Source: Sulfurospirillum barnesii SES-3 (GTDB lineage: Bacteria > Campylobacterota > Campylobacteria > Campylobacterales > Sulfurospirillaceae). Taken from it: a DNA stretch of 64,000 nucleotides. Where the stretch lies: positions 2,294,001 through 2,358,000 of the forward strand of contig NC_018002.1 of the NCBI RefSeq assembly GCF_000265295.1, given 5' to 3'. Positions 8,495 to 19,570 of this stretch are shown here, piece after piece. The position numbers and the translations under genes are program-made. The notes under the pieces were generated by a model. The model had not been told where the DNA came from, searched no databases, and saw only the letters and a program-made list of their open reading frames with translations. The first letter of the stretch is position 1, and each line of letters starts with the position of its first letter.

Positions 8495-11400
8495 ATGAAT
8501 AAATTTACAGAAGATAAATTAGAGCAAGCATTTATAGAGTTGCTTCATGAGCAAGAAATTATCCATCAAAACGGCAAAGAGCTGATAAGACATGAGAGTG
8601 ATGTACTCCTCAAAGATGATCTCAAAGAGTATTTAGCTGCCAGATATGAATCCCAACATATTACCAAGAGCGAAATCGATCAAATCATTCGCATATTAGA
8701 AAACTATCCTTCGAATGATTTGTACGATACCAATAAAGCTATTATGAAACTAGTATCTGATGGATTTATCTTTAAGCGAGAAGATGCAAACGAAAAAGAT
8801 ATTTTTATAGAACTGATAGACTATGAAAATTTAGACAAAAACACCTTCAAAATTGTCAATCAGCTAGAAATCATTGGCTATGAAAAACGAATCCCTGATG
8901 GTATTCTCTATATTAACGGTTTACCTCTTGTAGTCTTTGAATTTAAAAGTGCCATTCGAGAAGAAGCAACAATTCATGATGCGTATGTGCAGCTTACTAC
9001 ACGATACCGAAGAGATATTCCAGAACTTTTTAAATACAATGTATTTTGTATCATCAGCGATGGAGTGAATAATAAGGTAGGTTCATTTTTCTCACCCTAT
9101 GAGTTTTTTTATGCTTGGAGAAAAATCACAGGTAATGAAGTAGAGGTGGATGGTATTGCTTCTATGCACTCCATGATTAAAGGAGCATTTAATCGTGAAC
9201 GACTCATCGACATTATTCATAATTTTATTTACATGCCCGACAAATCAAAAAAAGAAGAAAAAATAGTTTGTCGATATCCTCAATATTACGCTACTAAAAA
9301 ACTCTATGACAATATAAAACTTCACCAAAAACCACACGGTGACGGTAAAGGTGGTACCTATTTTGGTGCTACAGGATGCGGTAAAAGCTTTACCATGCTT
9401 TATCTCACTCGATTGCTTATGAAAAGTATCCATTTTTCTAGTCCTACGATCATTCTTATCACTGATAGAACAGACCTAGATGTACAGCTTAGTAGTCAAT
9501 TTTCAAATGCTAAAAGTTTTATAGGTGATGATGGTATTGTCAGTGTTGAGAGCCGAGAAGATTTGAGACAAAAATTACGGGGCAGAGAAAGCGGTGGTGT
9601 TTTTTTAACCACCATCCATAAATTCACGGAAGATATTGAGCTACTTAGCAATAGAGAAAATATCATCTGTATATCCGATGAAGCGCATAGAAGCCAAATC
9701 AACCTAGATCAAAAGATTAAAACCACAAAAGATGGTGTTAAAAAGACATTCGGTTTTGCAAAATACCTGCATGATTCATTACCAAATGCAACCTATGTTG
9801 GATTTACAGGAACGCCAATCGATGGAACTTTAGATGTTTTTGGCGATGTCATTGATAGTTATACCATGACTGAATCCGTTCGAGATGAGATTACTGTTAA
9901 GATCGTTTATGAAGGAAGAGCAGCAAAAGTATTGCTGGATAACAGTAAGCTTCATGAGATAGAAGCATATTATGAAGAGTGCGCTAATGTCGGAGCAAAC
10001 GAGCATCAAATTGATGAGAGCAAAAAAGCTATGGCAAATATGGAGAACATTCTTGGTGATCCTAAGAGAATAAAAGCCTTAGCAAAAGATTTTGTAGAAC
10101 ATTATGAAACAAGAGTAAGTGAAGGAGCCACGCTCAAAGGTAAAGCTATATTTGTTTCCAGTAGTAGACCTATAGCCTATGCCCTTTTTAAAGAGATTAT
10201 TGCTTTACGACCACAATGGAATGAAAAGCGTATCTGTGATGAAAATGTAGAGCTTAGCGAGAAAGAGAAAAAGAAGATACTACCTCTTGAAAAACTCAAA
10301 ATGATTATGACTCGAAATAAAGATGACGAAAAAGAGTTATACAATCTTCTAGGAACCAAAGAGTATAGAAAGACACTCGATACGCAATTTAAAAATGAAA
10401 AATCAAACTTTAAAATAGCCATTGTTGTAGATATGTGGCTTACAGGATTTGATGTACCATGTTTAGATACGATCTATATAGACAAACCTATACAGCAACA
10501 CAATCTTATCCAAACAATTTCAAGAGTAAATAGAAAATATGCAGATAAAGATAAAGGGCTTGTTGTAGATTACATTGGTATCAAAACAGCCATGAATAAA
10601 GCTTTAAAGCAATTTTCAAAGGTTGATAGTAAAAACTTTGAAGATATACAAGCCTCTATTGTAGTGGTTAAAGATCATTTAGACTTGCTTTCAAAACTTT
10701 TTCATAAATTTGACAGCCATTTGTACTTTAGCGGAACCACACTAGAACAACTTGAGTGTTTAAACCTTGCAAGTGAATATGTTCAATTGACTAAAGAGCT
10801 TGAAACACGCTTTATCTATCTTGTTAAACGATTAAAATCTGCCTATGATATTTGTTGTGGTAGTGAAGAATTTACGCAACTCGAAAAAGATTTCATTCAT
10901 TTTTATTTAGCTGTTCGCTCAATTGTCGTGAAACTAACTCGTGGCGATGCCCCCGATACTGCACAAATGAATGCAAAAGTTGCAAAAATGATAGAAGAAG
11001 CTCTTAAAAGCGATGGCATTCAAGTGATCTATAAATTAGGCAGTGAAGAAGAATCAAAAATTGATATTTTTGATGAAGATTATATAAACAAAATCAATAA
11101 AATAAAGCTACCTAATACGAAGATTAAGCTATTGCAAAAGCTTTTAGCCAAAGCATTAGAAGAATTTAAAAAAACAAATAAAGTCAAAGCAATTGATTTT
11201 TCAAAAAAATTTACTGCTTTAGTTGCAAAATACAATGAAAGAAAAGAAGAAGATGTACTTGTCAGTGAAGTCCTTGAGGACTTCACTGATGAGATCATTG
11301 ATCTTTATAATGCATTGAAAAAAGAGAAAGAGTCATTTGGTGATTTGGGCATTGATTTTGAGGAAAAAGCTTTTTACGACATATTGAAAATGATCTCTAT

Positions 11401-11638
11401 TAAATATGACTTTTCATATCCTGATGATAAATTAATAGCCCTTGCAAAAGAAGTCAAAATTGTCGTTGATGATAAATCTAAATATACCGATTGGAATATA
11501 CGAGAAGACATCAAAGCTGAACTCAAAGTGGATTTGATTATGTTGCTTGCCAAACACGGCTATCCACCAATTACTAAAGATGAAGTGTTTAAAGAGATAT
11601 TTGAACAAGCTGAGAATTTTAAGAAATTTAGGCAATGA
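8495..11638 (+). CDS. hsdR: Type I restriction endonuclease subunit HsdR
   Basis: A 1047-residue motor and nuclease subunit. The N-terminal nuclease core has PD (134-135) and EFK (149-151), the PD-(D/E)xK pattern. The SF2 translocase follows with Walker A GATGCGKS (291-298), DEAH box (395-398), the TGTPID motif III region (near 435) and ISRVNRKY motif VI (near 680). The C-terminal 350 residues are helical, as in other HsdR proteins that dock on the methylase core. The length is normal and no lesion is seen, so the locus should restrict unmodified DNA. A GGAAAG site precedes the ATG. Confidence 0.96.
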   Translation: MNKFTEDKLEQAFIELLHEQEIIHQNGKELIRHESDVLLKDDLKEYLAARYESQHITKSEIDQIIRILENYPSNDLYDTNKAIMKLVSDGFIFKREDANEKDIFIELIDYENLDKNTFKIVNQLEIIGYEKRIPDGILYINGLPLVVFEFKSAIREEATIHDAYVQLTTRYRRDIPELFKYNVFCIISDGVNNKVGSFFSPYEFFYAWRKITGNEVEVDGIASMHSMIKGAFNRERLIDIIHNFIYMPDKSKKEEKIVCRYPQYYATKKLYDNIKLHQKPHGDGKGGTYFGATGCGKSFTMLYLTRLLMKSIHFSSPTIILITDRTDLDVQLSSQFSNAKSFIGDDGIVSVESREDLRQKLRGRESGGVFLTTIHKFTEDIELLSNRENIICISDEAHRSQINLDQKIKTTKDGVKKTFGFAKYLHDSLPNATYVGFTGTPIDGTLDVFGDVIDSYTMTESVRDEITVKIVYEGRAAKVLLDNSKLHEIEAYYEECANVGANEHQIDESKKAMANMENILGDPKRIKALAKDFVEHYETRVSEGATLKGKAIFVSSSRPIAYALFKEIIALRPQWNEKRICDENVELSEKEKKKILPLEKLKMIMTRNKDDEKELYNLLGTKEYRKTLDTQFKNEKSNFKIAIVVDMWLTGFDVPCLDTIYIDKPIQQHNLIQTISRVNRKYADKDKGLVVDYIGIKTAMNKALKQFSKVDSKNFEDIQASIVVVKDHLDLLSKLFHKFDSHLYFSGTTLEQLECLNLASEYVQLTKELETRFIYLVKRLKSAYDICCGSEEFTQLEKDFIHFYLAVRSIVVKLTRGDAPDTAQMNAKVAKMIEEALKSDGIQVIYKLGSEEESKIDIFDEDYINKINKIKLPNTKIKLLQKLLAKALEEFKKTNKVKAIDFSKKFTALVAKYNERKEEDVLVSEVLEDFTDEIIDLYNALKKEKESFGDLGIDFEEKAFYDILKMISIKYDFSYPDDKLIALAKEVKIVVDDKSKYTDWNIREDIKAELKVDLIMLLAKHGYPPITKDEVFKEIFEQAENFKKFRQ

Positions 11639-12990: not shown

Positions 12991-13005
12991 TGACACAACC
13001 TGTCA
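12991..13005. promoter_or_regulatory. Candidate operator, copy 1 (TGACA-N5-TGTCA)
   Basis: The inverted repeat TGACACAACCTGTCA lies 51 bases before the first gene of the unknown cassette (13057). Fourteen of its bases recur exactly at 14275-14288, at the same distance before another cassette gene. A repeated dyad at matched distance from two starts suggests a regulator site; the WYL-domain protein encoded at 18680 is the obvious candidate. Confidence 0.5.
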
Positions 13006-13020
13006 CACACTCTGGCTACA

Positions 13021-13045
13021 CTTCTTCCATAATATTTGGAAGAAG
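13021..13045 (+). promoter_or_regulatory. Inverted repeat that could hide a ribosome binding site
   Basis: CTTCTTCC (13021-13028) and GGAAGAAG (13038-13045) form a perfect 8-bp stem with a 9-base loop. The right arm contains the AGAAGG ribosome site of the 63-residue gene at 13057, so folding would block translation. It may instead be a DNA-level operator. Confidence 0.45.
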
Positions 13046-13056
13046 GTTGAGCCTTT

Positions 13057-13248
13057 ATGCTTTCAATTACCGTAGGGATTATTTTTATTCTTACAACATA
13101 TATTTTAAGAAAGTGTATCCGTGATTTATACGTATTTCAATCTGAAATACCCTCTTCTCCCAAATCCAATGAAAACAATGATTCATTTAATTATGAAGCC
13201 ATTCAAAATGCTTTAGAAACAAAACCAAACAAAGATACACAAATCTAA
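13057..13248 (+). CDS. Small single-pass membrane protein
   Basis: A 63-residue protein with one N-terminal membrane helix (residues 1-17, LSITVGIIFILTTYIL), a basic stop-transfer (RKCIRD) and a polar tail rich in Ser, Asn and Lys. An AGAAGG site lies before the ATG, inside a possible hairpin. It is the first gene of the unknown cassette and stops 14 bases before the start of the exported protein. I recognise no family. It could anchor a complex at the inner membrane. Confidence 0.6.
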   Translation: MLSITVGIIFILTTYILRKCIRDLYVFQSEIPSSPKSNENNDSFNYEAIQNALETKPNKDTQI

Positions 13249-13262
13249 TGCAAGGAGCATTT

Positions 13263-14006
13263 ATGTTAATAAAAAAAATTGCGATACTTACTATGGTAGG
13301 GCTGAACTGTTGGGCTGGTATGCCTTGGGAGACAGGCTGGGCAATGGGCGGAACATCAACGCATGCTATTATCGACAAAGACAATAATCAATTACTCATC
13401 GAGTGTAATGATCAAGGAAGTTATTTATATTTACGAAATGAAAAACGAAATGAAATCAAACTTGGGCAAGCTGTTTCTATTGGCGTTAATAACACTAAAA
13501 CGACTGTACCAACGAGTATAGATGCAACCAGTGCTCAAAGCGATAAAACGGCGTGGGGCAATTTTATTTATTCACTTCCAACATCCAAAACCATCACACT
13601 TAACAATAAAAAATTTGAGCCAAACAACTCAGAAAAGCTATCTGATATAGTACAAGCATGTACGGCTTATGATGAAAATACTATCAATAACCAGCAAAAT
13701 AAAAATTTACCCACACAATCAAATCAGGTACCAGTTCAACTAAAAGTACAAAATTTCCCTGCCAATATAAAAACAGGACAGATATATCAATTTGTAAATA
13801 TTGACGTTATCTCAAAAGTCAATAATGTACAAATAAGTAATGTTATTGTTAATCGTGGGAATTGTAAGACTAATGCCTTAAATGCGAAGTTTCCTTTGCG
13901 TTTAAAATTTGGAGAACAATATCAGGGGACCTATCAATCTTGTAATGCAATTGAAGTTGAAGTCATAACAGATCATGGAAATTGGACATTTAGTTTAACC
14001 AATTAA
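13263..14006 (+). CDS. Exported protein of unknown function
   Basis: The start is set at ATG 13263, behind AAGGAG, not at the earlier in-frame ATG 13248. The 247-residue product begins with a signal peptide (MLIKKIAILTMVGLNCWAG), then a Gly/Trp-rich stretch, and is otherwise beta-rich and polar with a Gln/Asn-rich linker near residues 145-160. The C-terminal 90 residues (from about 160) form a separate beta domain with two cysteines (NCKTN and QSCNA) that may pair in the periplasm. No family is recognised. An exported component suggests a function at the cell envelope rather than only in the cytoplasm. Confidence 0.65.
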   Translation: MLIKKIAILTMVGLNCWAGMPWETGWAMGGTSTHAIIDKDNNQLLIECNDQGSYLYLRNEKRNEIKLGQAVSIGVNNTKTTVPTSIDATSAQSDKTAWGNFIYSLPTSKTITLNNKKFEPNNSEKLSDIVQACTAYDENTINNQQNKNLPTQSNQVPVQLKVQNFPANIKTGQIYQFVNIDVISKVNNVQISNVIVNRGNCKTNALNAKFPLRLKFGEQYQGTYQSCNAIEVEVITDHGNWTFSLTN

Positions 14007-14038
14007 TATTACCATCCATTATTTTAAAGGAGCTATCG

Positions 14039-14302
14039 ATGCTATATGTCATCCTTATTTTTTGCATTGCCTTGAGATTTCCTTTATGCTTCACTATCAT
14101 CTTTTCTTTTTTTGGAGCCTATATGGGTTATATTGGAGCTATAGAGTTAGGGATAAGTTCTGAGTTTTTTAAACTTTTTTTAGGACTTCTAGGGTTTCTT
14201 TTGGCTGGCTATATAGCACCTAGCATACAAAAAAAGTATTTAAAGATATCCCGTGAGTATCCCTTTACATTTACGACACAACCTGTCATACCATTTAATT
14301 AA
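14039..14302 (+). CDS. Small multi-pass membrane protein
   Basis: An 87-residue hydrophobic protein with two or three membrane helices (about 2-20, 22-40 and 44-62) and a basic C-terminal tail. The ATG follows AAAGGAG. It is on the same strand as the exported protein 32 bases upstream. The end of the gene contains the second copy of the candidate operator (14275-14288), which suggests that a second transcript starts just after it. No family is recognised. Confidence 0.6.
   Translation: MLYVILIFCIALRFPLCFTIIFSFFGAYMGYIGAIELGISSEFFKLFLGLLGFLLAGYIAPSIQKKYLKISREYPFTFTTQPVIPFN
14275..14288. promoter_or_regulatory. Candidate operator, copy 2
   Basis: GACACAACCTGTCA is identical over 14 bases to 12992-13005. 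It lies inside the 3' end of the small membrane protein gene, 48 bases before the gene at 14337. The codons it uses place it in the C-terminal tail, where constraint on protein sequence should be low. Confidence 0.45.
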
Positions 14303-14336
14303 ACTTTGATTGTTATTTTAAGAATAAGGAGCAAAT

Positions 14337-14999
14337 ATGTTACCACTTATTTTAGGCGGAGTCGCCATTGCAGCCACAGGCTATAAAATCAAACAGTTTC
14401 TTAGCAATGAGGATAATCTTGATAAAATCAATGATACTCTGATGAAAGGAGTTGATTGGCTTGACAGTGTTGATCAAAAAACAGAAAAGTTTTTTGATGG
14501 CTTAATCCAAAAGATTGATGAATCAAAAAATAAAGAAAAACTAGCTTTACTTTTAGACGAACTTGATGATATTAAAAGTACAACAGCAACAATCATCTAT
14601 AACGACATTGATGAGTTACTGTTTGATACTACAAAAAATTCTTGTTCAGAAATCTATAAACCATGTGAAATAGAACTGATAAGAGACCAAAAACAAACAC
14701 CACTACGATATACAGAAGAAAACTATCTCATTATAGAAAAATTCTGCGATATATTAACAACGGCAAATAACTTTCTCTCTCAATACATTGATGAAATTAA
14801 AACATTGCCCACTCAAAATCAATCTTCAGTGCAACCTTATACACTTTCACAAAATCAAATTAAAAAATTATATATAATTCAAACTTTTTTAGAAAATGTT
14901 ATTTGTTGTAAAGTTAGTAGCGATAATGTAACAATTTCAAAGGTTACAATAAGATCTTTTAATAGAATTAAGCATACAATTGAGCTATTTAAGAGTTAA
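14337..14999 (+). CDS. Unrecognised protein with N-terminal hydrophobic segment
   Basis: A 220-residue protein. The first 16 residues (MLPLILGGVAIAATGY) could be a short membrane anchor or glycine-rich insertion helix; the rest is charged and mostly helical, with heptad-like stretches at about 25-85. Two cysteine pairs (near 105-111 and 190-191) have no clear motif. An AAGGAG site precedes the start. It appears to open the second part of the cassette, after the second operator copy. Function unknown. Confidence 0.6.
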   Translation: MLPLILGGVAIAATGYKIKQFLSNEDNLDKINDTLMKGVDWLDSVDQKTEKFFDGLIQKIDESKNKEKLALLLDELDDIKSTTATIIYNDIDELLFDTTKNSCSEIYKPCEIELIRDQKQTPLRYTEENYLIIEKFCDILTTANNFLSQYIDEIKTLPTQNQSSVQPYTLSQNQIKKLYIIQTFLENVICCKVSSDNVTISKVTIRSFNRIKHTIELFKS

Positions 15000-15047: not shown

Positions 15048-15605
15048 ATGGAAATACTTTTACTATTGTTCTTCGTTGTGTTACTTCAGTTCATTGTTTT
15101 ACTTATAGTTCTAAAAAATGTAAAACATCAACAGAAAGCAACTCAAGAATACATAACAAGCCTTGAACAAAATATTACAAATTTAGTGCAGTCCACTTTT
15201 CATACAATTAGCCAGCAAATCTTAAATTTAAAAATTGATAATTATGTTAATACGGCAAATAAAACCTTAAACTCTAAAGAGCATATATACGAGAATGAAT
15301 TTTTTACTCAAGAGTTTGGACATTGTAAAATTGTTAAAATTATCGATAAAAAAGACAATTCTATTACAAATGTTTATTACAATGAGAATGGGGGAAAATC
15401 TTATACTGAGACATTTAACGAAAATATCTTGACATACTCAGCACATTATCAAGATGATAGATTACATAGAGGCTGTGAGTACGATTCACATGCAAATCTT
15501 CTTTTTGAATATTTTTACAATGAGATTGGTGAGGTCACTAAAAGAATTGAATATTTTTACGCAGAAGATGGGGCATTAGAACAAACACAAGAAACTCATT
15601 ATTAG
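15048..15605 (+). CDS. Membrane-anchored protein with coiled coil and beta repeats
   Basis: A 185-residue protein with an N-terminal membrane helix (about 2-23), a coiled coil (about 25-70), then a beta-rich domain with repeated Y/F-N-E-x-G units (VYYNENGG, FYNEIGE, FYAEDG), similar in style to MORN-like or YwqK-type repeats. The cytoplasmic or periplasmic side is not clear. The TerB-like gene starts 8 bases after its stop, so the two are probably co-translated. No named family is assigned. Confidence 0.6.
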   Translation: MEILLLLFFVVLLQFIVLLIVLKNVKHQQKATQEYITSLEQNITNLVQSTFHTISQQILNLKIDNYVNTANKTLNSKEHIYENEFFTQEFGHCKIVKIIDKKDNSITNVYYNENGGKSYTETFNENILTYSAHYQDDRLHRGCEYDSHANLLFEYFYNEIGEVTKRIEYFYAEDGALEQTQETHY

Positions 15606-15613
15606 GAATGACC

Positions 15614-16030
15614 ATGTATTTACATTTATTAAAAGAAGAAGAGCAAGAAGATTTTTTGGAATTAGCGTATCATCTCATGGGGATAGATGGGATGCATCAA
15701 GATGAGGAAGTTATTGTATTTGAGAGTTATAAACATGAATGTTCTTTAGAAGAGTATATAATTTCAAAACAAAATGATTTAGAAAGTGTTATTGCTAATC
15801 TTAAAAATACTTCTTCTAAAACTAAAAGAATAATTCTCATTGAACTCTTTGAAATTTTATTAACCGATGGTGAAGTACATGAAAATGAAAAAACTTTTAT
15901 CAATCACCTTGCTAGTGAATTTAAAGTTTCAAGTGAAGAGTTAGAAAAGATAAATAAATGGACCTTGGCAATGGATCATATTGTCAAATTAGGATACACG
16001 ATTATCAACAAAGGAAATGATAATGCTTGA
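15614..16030 (+). CDS. TerB-like protein
   Basis: A 138-residue acidic helical protein. The two-half pattern LAYHLMGIDGMHQDEE and LFEILLTDGEVHENEKTFI matches the TerB/DjlA-type fold, in which each half carries an acidic D-G-x-x-x-x-E loop proposed to bind metal. I chose ATG 15614 because AGGA lies a normal distance before it; ATG 15608 is almost on top of that site. TerB domains are found in tellurite/phage resistance (Ter) systems and near membrane and nuclease components. Here the neighbours are a coiled-coil protein (8-base overlap) and a membrane protein with an HNH-like motif. Confidence 0.65.
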   Translation: MYLHLLKEEEQEDFLELAYHLMGIDGMHQDEEVIVFESYKHECSLEEYIISKQNDLESVIANLKNTSSKTKRIILIELFEILLTDGEVHENEKTFINHLASEFKVSSEELEKINKWTLAMDHIVKLGYTIINKGNDNA

Positions 16031-16949
16031 TATTTTTGATAACCCTTTAAAATCTATAAATGATTTTTTTGGAGTTACTGGAGATACTTTAGATTCTACT
16101 CTAAAGGACATTAAAAAACACGGTTCAAAAGTTTTGAGTAGAATTACGGGAGAAGATAAATTCAAGCAAGCTGAAAAATTACGTAAGAAAATTACAAGAA
16201 AATATAATAAAACAGAAACATCCTATGAACAACAATCAAAAATACTCCTAGATTCTTTGGAACAAACAATAACTTCAATAAACAATCATAAACAAGAAAT
16301 TTACAAAAACCACTTTTCTCAATTTACCTTATTAGCAAATCGTCTGCATAATCTTTCCATTCAAGGTGAGAGTTTCATAGAATATTTTGATAGTAGTATT
16401 TATGAAATGAAAAATTTAAATGCCGTGAGATCAAAAAATGACTTATATAGCATTGACTTCAATAATATGAAAGCTCAAGAGATCACTATAGGAATAATTA
16501 CTTTAGGTTGGTCAACACGAAGTAAAGCTGTAGAAACTTTACGAAATGTACAAGCAGAAGAAAAAAGAGTACATGAAGAAATTACAAAGATGAATGCACA
16601 TATTACTCAGTTAGAAACAGCATTATTAGCACTTGAAAATGTTGAAGAATATTTTGCTTCTCTCATACATAATTATGAAAAATTACTGCATCGTTTTAGA
16701 TATGGAATTGCTTCTCAAATGCAAAAAAACATGTTAAATGATATTGCATTAGAAACTGGAAAGTTAGATTTTAAAATGATGCCTATAGTTCATATAGAAG
16801 AATTTCAAGCGCTTTTCAATCTTTCTATCATTTTGAAAACAATGGCTACAATGGGCTATCTTGATGAACAAGGTAATGTCAACGAAGAAGATCAAAAATC
16901 TATTAATAATATCAAGCTTTTAGTCACCCAAGAACTAGCTGTAGCATAA
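16023..16949 (+). CDS. Coiled-coil protein of the cassette
   Basis: A 308-residue, almost wholly helical protein. Long coiled coils occur at about 45-110 and 170-225, separated by a short hydrophobic segment with ITIGIITLGWSTRSKA. Two starts are possible (16017 and 16023); the second has better spacing from AAAGGA. It overlaps the TerB-like gene and ends 6 bases before the next, so the three are one transcription unit. It may be a scaffold linking TerB to the membrane effector. I recognise no named family. Confidence 0.6.
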   Translation: MLDIFDNPLKSINDFFGVTGDTLDSTLKDIKKHGSKVLSRITGEDKFKQAEKLRKKITRKYNKTETSYEQQSKILLDSLEQTITSINNHKQEIYKNHFSQFTLLANRLHNLSIQGESFIEYFDSSIYEMKNLNAVRSKNDLYSIDFNNMKAQEITIGIITLGWSTRSKAVETLRNVQAEEKRVHEEITKMNAHITQLETALLALENVEEYFASLIHNYEKLLHRFRYGIASQMQKNMLNDIALETGKLDFKMMPIVHIEEFQALFNLSIILKTMATMGYLDEQGNVNEEDQKSINNIKLLVTQELAVA

Positions 16950-16955
16950 GGATAA

Positions 16956-18674
16956 ATGATGAGTAACGAAAAATATATAATAAAAGAACTTTCGCTTGAT
17001 GAGATGCTTGATGAGCTCAATGGCACATCTCCGCTCAATATGAGTAAAAAATTAATGGAGTATGAACTCTTCGACCAACAATCGTCTATAGAAATATTGG
17101 AGCAAATTTACAAAGAATTTGAAAGTAAAGAAAAGGTTATTGATAATCTTGTGACACCTATGCTTCTTAATATATTTGATGGGCTTATCAAACATCCAAA
17201 ACTTGAAGGTACCTTCAGAAAAACCAATATTACCCCTAGTAGATTAGTAAATGATGTTAACTCTTTTAGCTATAAAACTTTTAAGCCTAAACAAACGATA
17301 TTTAACCATGACTTCTTCCTGAGACAAGGAGAAAAAGCACATTATAGTCCGTGGACAAGAATGAAGTTTTATGATACTAAACCTCGAAGTACAACAGAAG
17401 AAGAAAAAGGTTTAGTTAGAGATACAACCATTACATACGAAGATAAAAATGGCGAAATAAAAACAATAACTACTACAACTGTCATTGATAATATCACTGG
17501 TGAAACACTTGATTTAACTATAGCTGGTGCTAAGCAAAAAGATATAAAGACGTCACATATGGATCATATTAATCCAATAAGCAAGATACGTGAAGACAAT
17601 AAAAATAATCCTTATCTTTACAGAGATGACCTTGAAAAGTTAGTCGGATTACCAGAAAATGAATCATATATTAACGCATCTCTCAACATATCTAAAAATG
17701 ATATGTCATGGAGTGAATATATTGAAAAAAATCCAAATAAATTAACCCCTGAAGAACAGCAAAAGGCATTAGAATTAGAAAAAAAGGCAAATGAAGCACA
17801 AAAAAATGAAGCTAGAAAGTTAATGGCTAAAAATATTGGGTTAGATGCGTTAGGAGATGTTATTATTTTTATTTTAAAACCTATTTGGTTTGAAATCAAA
17901 GATATGTTTACTCATGGAATTTTAGGAGATTTTGCATCAAAAACTAAGAATAAATTTGAAGCTTTTTTATTAAGAATCAAAAGAGCATATAACTTTATAA
18001 AAGAGAATATACTTCATATGCTAGGCGAAAATTTACAAAAAATTATGGAAAACTTCATTGGGATATTAATAAGTGCTTTAATTCAAGTATGCAAAGGTAT
18101 ATTTCAAAAAATTGTTCAAATTATTTCTGATGGATACTTGGCTTTAAAAGAAGCATTGAAGATTATATTAAAAGACAAAGATGAGAATGGTAATATAATA
18201 TCCCCTGCTCAGAAAGCAGATGCTATAGTTAAAATAGTAGCATCTGCGATAGTTCCAATCTTAATCTTCTCATTTGAACAAACCTTGAGTAAAATACCAA
18301 TTATAGGGGATATAGCTACAATAATTGTATCAGGATTAGCAACAACCTTGGTAGTCTGGGTTCTGGATGAAATTGATCTATTCTCGGTTAAAAGTGAAAA
18401 GCGACTAATGAGAGTAAAAGAAATTTTTGAATTAAGAATTGAAACAATCAAAAAGAATACTGACATATTTGAAAAAGCATCCATTGAAGTGTTAGCAAAA
18501 CAAAAACTTCAATTTAAAAAGATAGCTTCAGATATGCACCATGCTATAGAAAATAATTTGAATGTAAATAATTCAGTCTATCAAATGGCTAATTTTATGC
18601 ATATTGATCTACAAGCTAAATCTACCGACGAATTTTTAGCGCTACTTAGTAGTAAAAAACAATTAGTGATCTAA
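16956..18674 (+). CDS. Large membrane protein with HNH-like nuclease motif (candidate effector)
   Basis: A 572-residue protein. After a helical N-terminal region, residues 200-250 contain SHMDHINPIS, then about 35 residues on NASLNISKND. This order (H-x-D-H-I-x-P, later N and N-x-S-K) is that of HNH endonucleases, here with H201, D203, H204 and N240/N244. The C-terminal half is amphipathic and hydrophobic, with likely membrane helices at about 365-390 and 423-470 (IVASAIVPILIFSF, IVSGLATTLVVWVL). A nuclease-like part joined to a membrane part is unusual and suggests a membrane-associated effector. No CxxC zinc pairs are present. Start at 16956 or 16959. Confidence 0.6.
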   Translation: MMSNEKYIIKELSLDEMLDELNGTSPLNMSKKLMEYELFDQQSSIEILEQIYKEFESKEKVIDNLVTPMLLNIFDGLIKHPKLEGTFRKTNITPSRLVNDVNSFSYKTFKPKQTIFNHDFFLRQGEKAHYSPWTRMKFYDTKPRSTTEEEKGLVRDTTITYEDKNGEIKTITTTTVIDNITGETLDLTIAGAKQKDIKTSHMDHINPISKIREDNKNNPYLYRDDLEKLVGLPENESYINASLNISKNDMSWSEYIEKNPNKLTPEEQQKALELEKKANEAQKNEARKLMAKNIGLDALGDVIIFILKPIWFEIKDMFTHGILGDFASKTKNKFEAFLLRIKRAYNFIKENILHMLGENLQKIMENFIGILISALIQVCKGIFQKIVQIISDGYLALKEALKIILKDKDENGNIISPAQKADAIVKIVASAIVPILIFSFEQTLSKIPIIGDIATIIVSGLATTLVVWVLDEIDLFSVKSEKRLMRVKEIFELRIETIKKNTDIFEKASIEVLAKQKLQFKKIASDMHHAIENNLNVNNSVYQMANFMHIDLQAKSTDEFLALLSSKKQLVI

Positions 18675-18679
18675 AAAAT

Positions 18680-19570
18680 ATGAGTAAACAAATAACTGAA
18701 CACGATAAAATAGCTACGAGATTAGCATTGATTCTGCAAAAACTGGTTGCTAAAGAAAGATTTACAATTGAAGAGCTATGTGAAGAGTTCAATGTCAATA
18801 AGCGAACTATCCAAAGAGATGTCAATGAGCGACTTGCATTTTTACCTATTAAAAAAGAAAATGGGTATTATTTTGCTAAGTCTTTTGCATTTGGAGATCT
18901 AAGCTTTAAAGACATTCAGGCATTTGCTACTCTAAGTGGTATAAAATCACTCTACCCTGCTTTAACCAATGAATTTATTGTGGATCTGCTTAATATCAAA
19001 ACCAATCAAGCATATCTTATTAAATCATTCAACCATGAAAGTATTACAAACCAACAGAAATCTTTTGAAACTATCTCTGCATGGATTCTCAAACATCAAC
19101 AAATCTCATGTACTTATAAAAATAAACAAAGAGTTTTAAACCCTTACAAGCTTGTCAATATCAATGGTATTTGGTATTTGGGTGCAGATGAAGATGGTAC
19201 TTTCAAAACATTTACTTTTTCAAAAATCACCAAATTGAAATTTTTAGATACTAATTTTTCAGAGAATCCTGAGTTTGTAGAACTTCTCAAAAAAAATGAA
19301 GTAACATGGTTTTCTAATAATACTCTTGAGGTGACCTTACAAATCAATTCAAATGTTTCTGAGTATTTTTTTAGAAGAGCACTTCTTCCTAACCAAAAAA
19401 TCATAGAACAAAATGATGATTATCTTATTCTTTCTACAAAAGTATCCTACGAAGATGAACTCTTTAGCATCGTCAAATATTGGTTACCACATATAAAAAT
19501 TCTACAACCAACGGATTTACAAACTAAGTTTGAAAAGATTTTAGAGGAGTATCTCTCGAACAACAATTAA
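18680..19570 (+). CDS. HTH-WYL domain transcriptional regulator
   Basis: A 296-residue regulator. An N-terminal winged helix-turn-helix (about 10-65, FTIEELCEEFNVNKRTIQRDV) is followed by a WYL domain (about 135-215, with LNPYKLVNINGIWYLGA) and a C-terminal WCX-like domain. WYL regulators bind nucleic-acid or nucleotide ligands and often control anti-phage systems (for example BrxR and CapW). It starts 5 bases after the HNH-like gene, so it is the last gene of that operon and may be autoregulated through the repeated operators at 12991 and 14275. Confidence 0.85.
   Translation: MSKQITEHDKIATRLALILQKLVAKERFTIEELCEEFNVNKRTIQRDVNERLAFLPIKKENGYYFAKSFAFGDLSFKDIQAFATLSGIKSLYPALTNEFIVDLLNIKTNQAYLIKSFNHESITNQQKSFETISAWILKHQQISCTYKNKQRVLNPYKLVNINGIWYLGADEDGTFKTFTFSKITKLKFLDTNFSENPEFVELLKKNEVTWFSNNTLEVTLQINSNVSEYFFRRALLPNQKIIEQNDDYLILSTKVSYEDELFSIVKYWLPHIKILQPTDLQTKFEKILEEYLSNNN

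Follow-up and report, generated by a model that had tools for sequence, protein, structure and literature searches.

A conserved dyad ahead of cassette genes in Sulfurospirillum barnesii as a predicted operator of a DriD/PafBC-type WYL activator

DriD of Caulobacter crescentus binds ATACGAC(N7)GTCGTAT, with sigma region 4 at the site centre, and its sites cover the -35 region and keep a fixed distance to the -10 (PMC12340889); structures are available (PDB 8tp8, 9pfq and 9pfv). The driD promoter contains the 15-mer CGACCGTTTCTGTCG, from which 11 nt lead to CAATCT, and has a G at -14 (PMC12340889). When we aligned the driD and didA promoters, anchoring the alignment on the -14 G reported in the same paper, both had 11 nt between the 15-mer and the likely -10. 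RecA-independent PafBC promoters of mycobacteria read tTGTCRgtg-8nt-TannnT (PMC5656591). BrxR and CapW, the WYL proteins of defence islands that have been studied to date, are repressors and bind inverted repeats (PMC9122601, PMC9122588).

The dyads and the WYL protein of the cassette

We analyzed a 64,000-nt stretch of S. barnesii SES-3 (NC_018002.1, positions 2,294,001 to 2,358,000; here the window), in which a gene cassette ends in a WYL gene (Table 1). The original prediction had singled out a 14-mer, GACACAACCTGTCA, at 12992-13005 and 14275-14288, and we confirmed both copies, found no third in the window, and placed them 51 and 48 bases ahead of the starts at 13057 and 14337. The first copy is the perfect TGACA-N5-TGTCA that had been described, and the second reads CGACA-N5-TGTCA, with C replacing the first T, so that one arm position is off. 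The accompanying claim that such a repeat is unlikely by chance did not hold on repetition alone, because six pairs of identical 14-mers lie within 2 kb of each other in the window; moreover, TGACA-N5-TGTCA with one mismatch is as frequent in the window as in shuffles. The second copy and its -10 also run over the 3' end of an 87-aa ORF, so the intergenic region is not clean, and since the copy falls within the last codons of an ORF with a good ribosome site, a coding coincidence needed excluding. The case for the dyad is therefore built on conservation, not repetition.

Table 1. Features of the cassette and its two predicted promoters (window coordinates).
Feature	Position	Strand	Remarks
Promoter 1	12991..13022
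Dyad 1, TGACACAACCTGTCA	12991..13005	+	WYL site (predicted); spans -38 to -24 in promoter 1
11-nt spacer, cacactctggc	13006..13016	+
-10 box TACACT, promoter 1	13017..13022	+	N11-TANNNT rule
63-aa small membrane protein	13057..13248	+	First gene of the cassette; paralog in L005
252-aa protein	13248..14006	+	Homologue in paralogous cassette, 54%
87-aa membrane-protein ORF	14039..14302	+	3' end holds dyad 2
Promoter 2	14274..14305
Dyad 2, CGACACAACCTGTCA	14274..14288	+	Counterpart of dyad 1 at promoter 2
11-nt spacer, taccatttaat	14289..14299	+
-10 box TAAACT, promoter 2	14300..14305	+	Overlaps stop of ORF 14039-14302
220-aa protein, N-terminal MLPLILGGVAIAATGYKIK	14337..14999	+	Family found most often after the dyad
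185-aa membrane-anchored protein	15048..15605	+
TerB-domain protein	15608..16030	+	Pfam TerB, 9.8e-9
310-aa predicted coiled-coil protein	16017..16949	+
572-aa predicted membrane protein	16956..18674	+	Weak PADLOC match, defence candidate PDC-M40B, 1.5e-5
HTH-WYL-WCX regulator	18680..19570	+	Predicted dyad binder; Pfam WYL, HTH_11, WCX; model and fold search

The window WYL protein carries an HTH, a three-helix bundle, a WYL and a WCX domain on one chain, as judged from Pfam (HTH_11, WYL, WCX) and from a predicted structure with a mean pLDDT of 77, in which helices 76-85, 97-103 and 106-112 lie between HTH and WYL. A PDB search with the single sequence gave weak HTH matches only, and a search with the family profile found PafBC and DriD. 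Foldseek with the model ranked DriD first (7e-13), PafBC next (1e-10), and then BrxR and CapW (6e-8 or weaker), although sequence identity to DriD is only ~17%. Five residues of the recognition helix (R42, T43, R46, D47 and R51) are invariant in 23 members, in step with the invariant half-site.

The cassette probably has a role in defence or conflict. The commonest gene behind the dyad encodes a short protein starting M(L/V)(P/R)-(I/L)-x-GG-(V/I)-A-L-A-A-T-G-Y-G-x-K-K; TerB-domain proteins, a MoxR AAA protein, GTPases with DUF697, DUF4062-TPR proteins and small zinc-ribbon-like proteins also occur in this position. The 572-aa protein contains an HNH nuclease-like HMDHINPI...N..LN.SK stretch followed by membrane segments, and an analogue with LDHIKS is found in the paralogous cassette (L005:5571-7190). 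The long ORF at 8495-11638, ahead of the cassette, is presumably a type I restriction subunit. A search of viral contigs for relatives of the 87-aa ORF found none.

Conservation and linkage to a WYL subfamily

The 14-mer occurs four times in the 2.51-Mb Sulfurospirillum genome vs. 0.012 expected, and all four copies lie in two paralogous cassettes, two in each. The second cassette (L005) is 1.27 Mb from the window copies and likewise has its dyads 51 and 48 bases before starts; its homologues of 13057, 13248, 14337 and the WYL protein show tblastn identities of 41, 54, 22 and 91%, respectively, and a single WYL gene is present in each cassette. The gap at its second dyad is short, with no reading frame resembling the 87-aa ORF. 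GACA-N5-TGTC-N12-TANNNT was found at five places genome-wide (2.5 Mb), four of them in the two cassettes, and the reversed control at none; a match at G000:1019148, in a coding stretch resembling a response-regulator receiver and outside the cassettes, was set aside. As a separate observation, homology between the paralogous WYL gene (L005:3501-4717) and the window copy does not extend into the last residues of the former, which adjoins a broken transposase-like ORF, and an insertion may have altered its 3' end.

Conservation of the dyad in related cassettes, on which the original prediction was to be judged, was confirmed. Across Campylobacterales it is found ahead of homologous genes, and in Gamma- and Betaproteobacteria it accompanies WYL relatives. 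In 399 Campylobacterales genomes, YGACANNACCTGTCR was found at 116 sites vs. 23 for the reversed control. We delimited the WYL subfamily by a score of at least 190 bits to the window protein, with a visible score gap beneath, which yielded 48 genomes. YGACA[CT][AC]ACCTGTCR and the subfamily were found together in 33 genomes, the motif alone in 11, the WYL gene alone in 15, and neither in 340 (Fisher p = 2.7e-27 over the 399 genomes, a statistic that ignores phylogeny), and this WYL gene lies within a few kb of most fetched motif loci. No clear site was seen in the fetched DNA of ~10 of the 48 subfamily genomes, some contigs being short, and several WYL loci without the exact site carry a variant in the same layout, e.g., GGACACAACCTGTCC or CGACACAAGCTGTCA. 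The site is absent from a more distant WYL clade (at most 36% identity), and no such dyad was found with distant WYL proteins of a Moraxella phage and of Sulfurospirillum/Sulfuricurvum plasmids. Between distant copies, 13-15 of the 15 motif bases are kept, and the 60 nt upstream are 23-42% identical; this drift of the flanks to chance identity around a preserved motif suggests selection. Judged by comparison across genomes, the 15-base mirror-image word is a real element.

One Helicobacteraceae genome (G093, loci L244-L247) has ten dyad sites, and a 43-kb region around its WYL gene holds nine of these. The sites precede MoxR, GTPase-DUF697 and small cysteine-rich proteins. In five genomes (G301, G306, G286, G390 and G364), the WYL-subfamily genes contain stops or are fragmentary, and dyad sites are still in the genome.

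Outside the phylum, plasmid WYL relatives of 31-34% identity were found in Acinetobacter, Cronobacter (two) and Diaphorobacter, and all four plasmids have the dyad with N11-TANNNT ahead of the WYL gene, at a distance of up to about 400 bp. A scan of GTDB genomes for exact TGACACAACCTGTCA returned 119 stretches, mostly chance matches, and became useful after WYL-profile screening: nine non-Campylobacterota loci among them encode this WYL family at >150 bits (Oceanospirillum, two Acinetobacter, four Psychrobacter, one Vibrio and one betaproteobacterium). The background rate of the family, at the cut-off used, was 2 in 350 genomes of the class searched. The second of the two came up through its protein alone, and CGACACCACCTGTCA lies directly behind its WYL gene. 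Viral contigs yielded one partial WYL only. On one of them (L331:629-643), GGACATTAGGTGTCC followed by 11 nt and TAGAAT lies just upstream of a WYL fragment, and the GGACA/TGTCC form is also seen in Diaphorobacter and genome G355. Several Bacteroidota loci (L057, L108, L146, L151 and similar) carry exact TGACACAACCTGTCA, 11 nt and TAnnTTTG with this WYL subfamily not nearby, and another regulator may use the same word there.

Promoter layout and alternative readings

Exactly N11 and then TANNNT follow the dyad in 33 of 55 non-redundant Campylobacterales sites (other spacings, 0-8), and by direction this layout occurs 33 times on the motif strand vs. three on the other. A gene with a ribosome site lies on the motif strand at 43 of the 55 sites and on the opposite strand at eight. 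Dyad-to-start distances cluster at 40-52 nt, and G is enriched at -14, as in extended -10 promoters. Since the dyad ends 11 nt ahead of the -10, it spans about -38 to -24. The half-sites are often CGACA-N5-TGTCG (general form, YGACA-N5-TGTCR), the 7 bases between half-sites are strongly conserved as ACAACCT, and A alone is enriched at the base before the dyad, the extended ATA/TAT arms of the DriD type being absent. Sigma-70 scanning did not flag these promoters, as follows from their lacking a -35 box. Campylobacter promoters generally lack this box and have an A/T-rich periodic stretch instead (PMC3656092), so its absence here is not in itself proof of activator dependence. The dyad, which is half G+C, interrupts this stretch. 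In Gamma- and Betaproteobacteria, promoters are expected to have a -35 box, and at the dyad sites of these classes the hexamer with a 16-18 nt spacing agrees with TTGACA at only 0-3 of 6 positions. Sequence comparison establishes the site together with its spacing and direction, and shows that it is conserved and linked to this WYL subfamily.

Directly after the -10 of promoter 1, an inverted repeat, CTTCCATAATATTTGGAAG, occupies 13023-13041, and of the 29 nt that follow this -10, 26-27 positions are kept in the paralog and in genome G021, far above the upstream flank. The region is a possible leader element.

The dyads are probably operators of a cassette-encoded WYL activator of the DriD/PafBC type, with the site forming the upstream half of the promoter. 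The window WYL protein is predicted to bind the dyad, a prediction supported by the co-occurrence of the two and by agreement with known WYL sites in the DriD core and the PafBC spacing. The regulator encoded at the cassette end would bind each YGACA-N5-TGTCR dyad, most likely as a homodimer, and the bound site would take the place of the -35 box. It would then recruit housekeeping RNA polymerase to otherwise weak promoters, as DriD and PafBC do, and turn on both the first gene and an internal block that starts at 14337 and ends with the WYL gene, whose own activation would result in positive feedback. If DriD and PafBC are a guide, the trigger would be single-stranded DNA from damage or invasion. 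The most likely role of the 15-base word is to switch defence-like cassettes on.

The same protein could instead act on the same dyads as a repressor resembling CapW or BrxR, keeping the cassette shut until a ligand releases it. Indeed, these two defence-island WYL proteins of established function both repress, occupancy of -38 to -24 could block sigma or RNA polymerase, and the WYL gene lies inside the operon that it would control, as in negative autoregulation. However, the sites of CapW overlap the -10 and that of BrxR is downstream of its -10, whereas the dyad ends 11 nt upstream, in one exact phase. The asymmetric, direction-dependent core of the dyad, the poor hexamers of the Gamma- and Betaproteobacteria sites, and the top ranking of the activators DriD and PafBC in the fold search also argue against repression, which we regard as unlikely. 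The position and direction of the site, its exact phase, the missing -35 and the fold neighbours favour activation over repression, and we consider activation likely.

A genuine site read by some other regulator, with the WYL gene a mere neighbour, would account for the motif genomes that lack the WYL subfamily and for the similar Bacteroidota sites without it. We consider this very improbable given the strength of the co-occurrence (p about 1e-27), recurrence beside WYL relatives in two further classes, and a core equal to the DriD site in a phase equal to that of PafBC sites. Moreover, only three Campylobacterales genomes have YGACACAACCTGTCR without a subfamily member, and two of these still have a WYL gene at the motif, as a pseudogene in one and as a more distant WYL in another.

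Slightly less credible still is that nTGACA serves as a -35 box 21 nt from the -10, with a MerR-type regulator distorting the DNA to align the two. At a spacing of 21, nTGACA agrees with TTGACA at 4-6 of 6 positions in the 13 out-of-phylum sites, but 33 of the 55 non-redundant Campylobacterales sites begin with C (CGACA), which is unselected as a -35 and fits a half-site, and the sites are linked to a WYL regulator rather than a MerR one. A chance repeat, with the two 14-mers unrelated to each other and copy 2 owed only to codons for TTQPV, could draw on the six 14-mer pairs within 2 kb and on the place of copy 2 in an ORF, but we rejected it on conservation as next to negligible, since every one of the four genome copies is cassette-linked at equal distances and the dyad is kept in tens of genomes without the 87-aa ORF.

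Comparison with described WYL systems

With activation by the cassette's WYL protein as the preferred reading, the analysis provides, from computation, a sequence rule for where one WYL subfamily acts, which is valid in at least three classes and makes the regulons of this subfamily listable by computer. A broader and more tentative possibility, to which we give somewhat less than even weight, is that one promoter code, YGACACAACCTGTCR-N11-TANNNT, belongs to a WYL activator that has been transferred widely and that controls a damage- or invasion-induced programme of defence-type cassettes, in Campylobacterota at up to ten promoters per genome and also in Gamma- and Betaproteobacteria, and that DriD and PafBC are branches of the same ancient WYL code. 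Helicobacter pylori and Campylobacter jejuni are without LexA and the SOS switch (PMC2912397), which would make a DriD/PafBC-type WYL activator in the phylum a candidate for a missing damage-response circuit, tied here to defence-like cassettes. The data also suggest that WYL control of islands extends beyond repression.

Compared with known systems, the repressors BrxR and CapW are a weaker fold match to the modelled protein than DriD and PafBC. SiwR of Mycobacterium smegmatis, a cassette-linked activator of the WYL family whose palindrome lies between -35 and -10, depends on the -26 region, but its palindrome is 19 bp with a GGA triplet and its target genes are DinB-like (PMC10693628). PafBC, a WYL activator needing no -35, shares TGTCR, 11 nt and TANNNT with the dyad promoters (PMC5656591, PMC11804915), although the outer gtg of its promoters is not conserved at the dyad sites. 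PafBC also acts as a heterodimer, recognizes a half-site and needs RNA polymerase for binding, whereas a full dyad and a single WYL gene are found here, and the full dyad suggests a homodimer. DriD is the closest counterpart in fold, being the best match of the model and, like the window protein, of HTH-WYL-WCX architecture. Its sites have the core CGAC-N7-GTCG in common with the dyad, and in both sets of promoters the site lies over a weak -35 region at a constant distance from the -10. The DriD regulon in Caulobacter consists of DNA-damage genes, whereas the dyads described here are predicted to drive cassettes that carry their own WYL gene.
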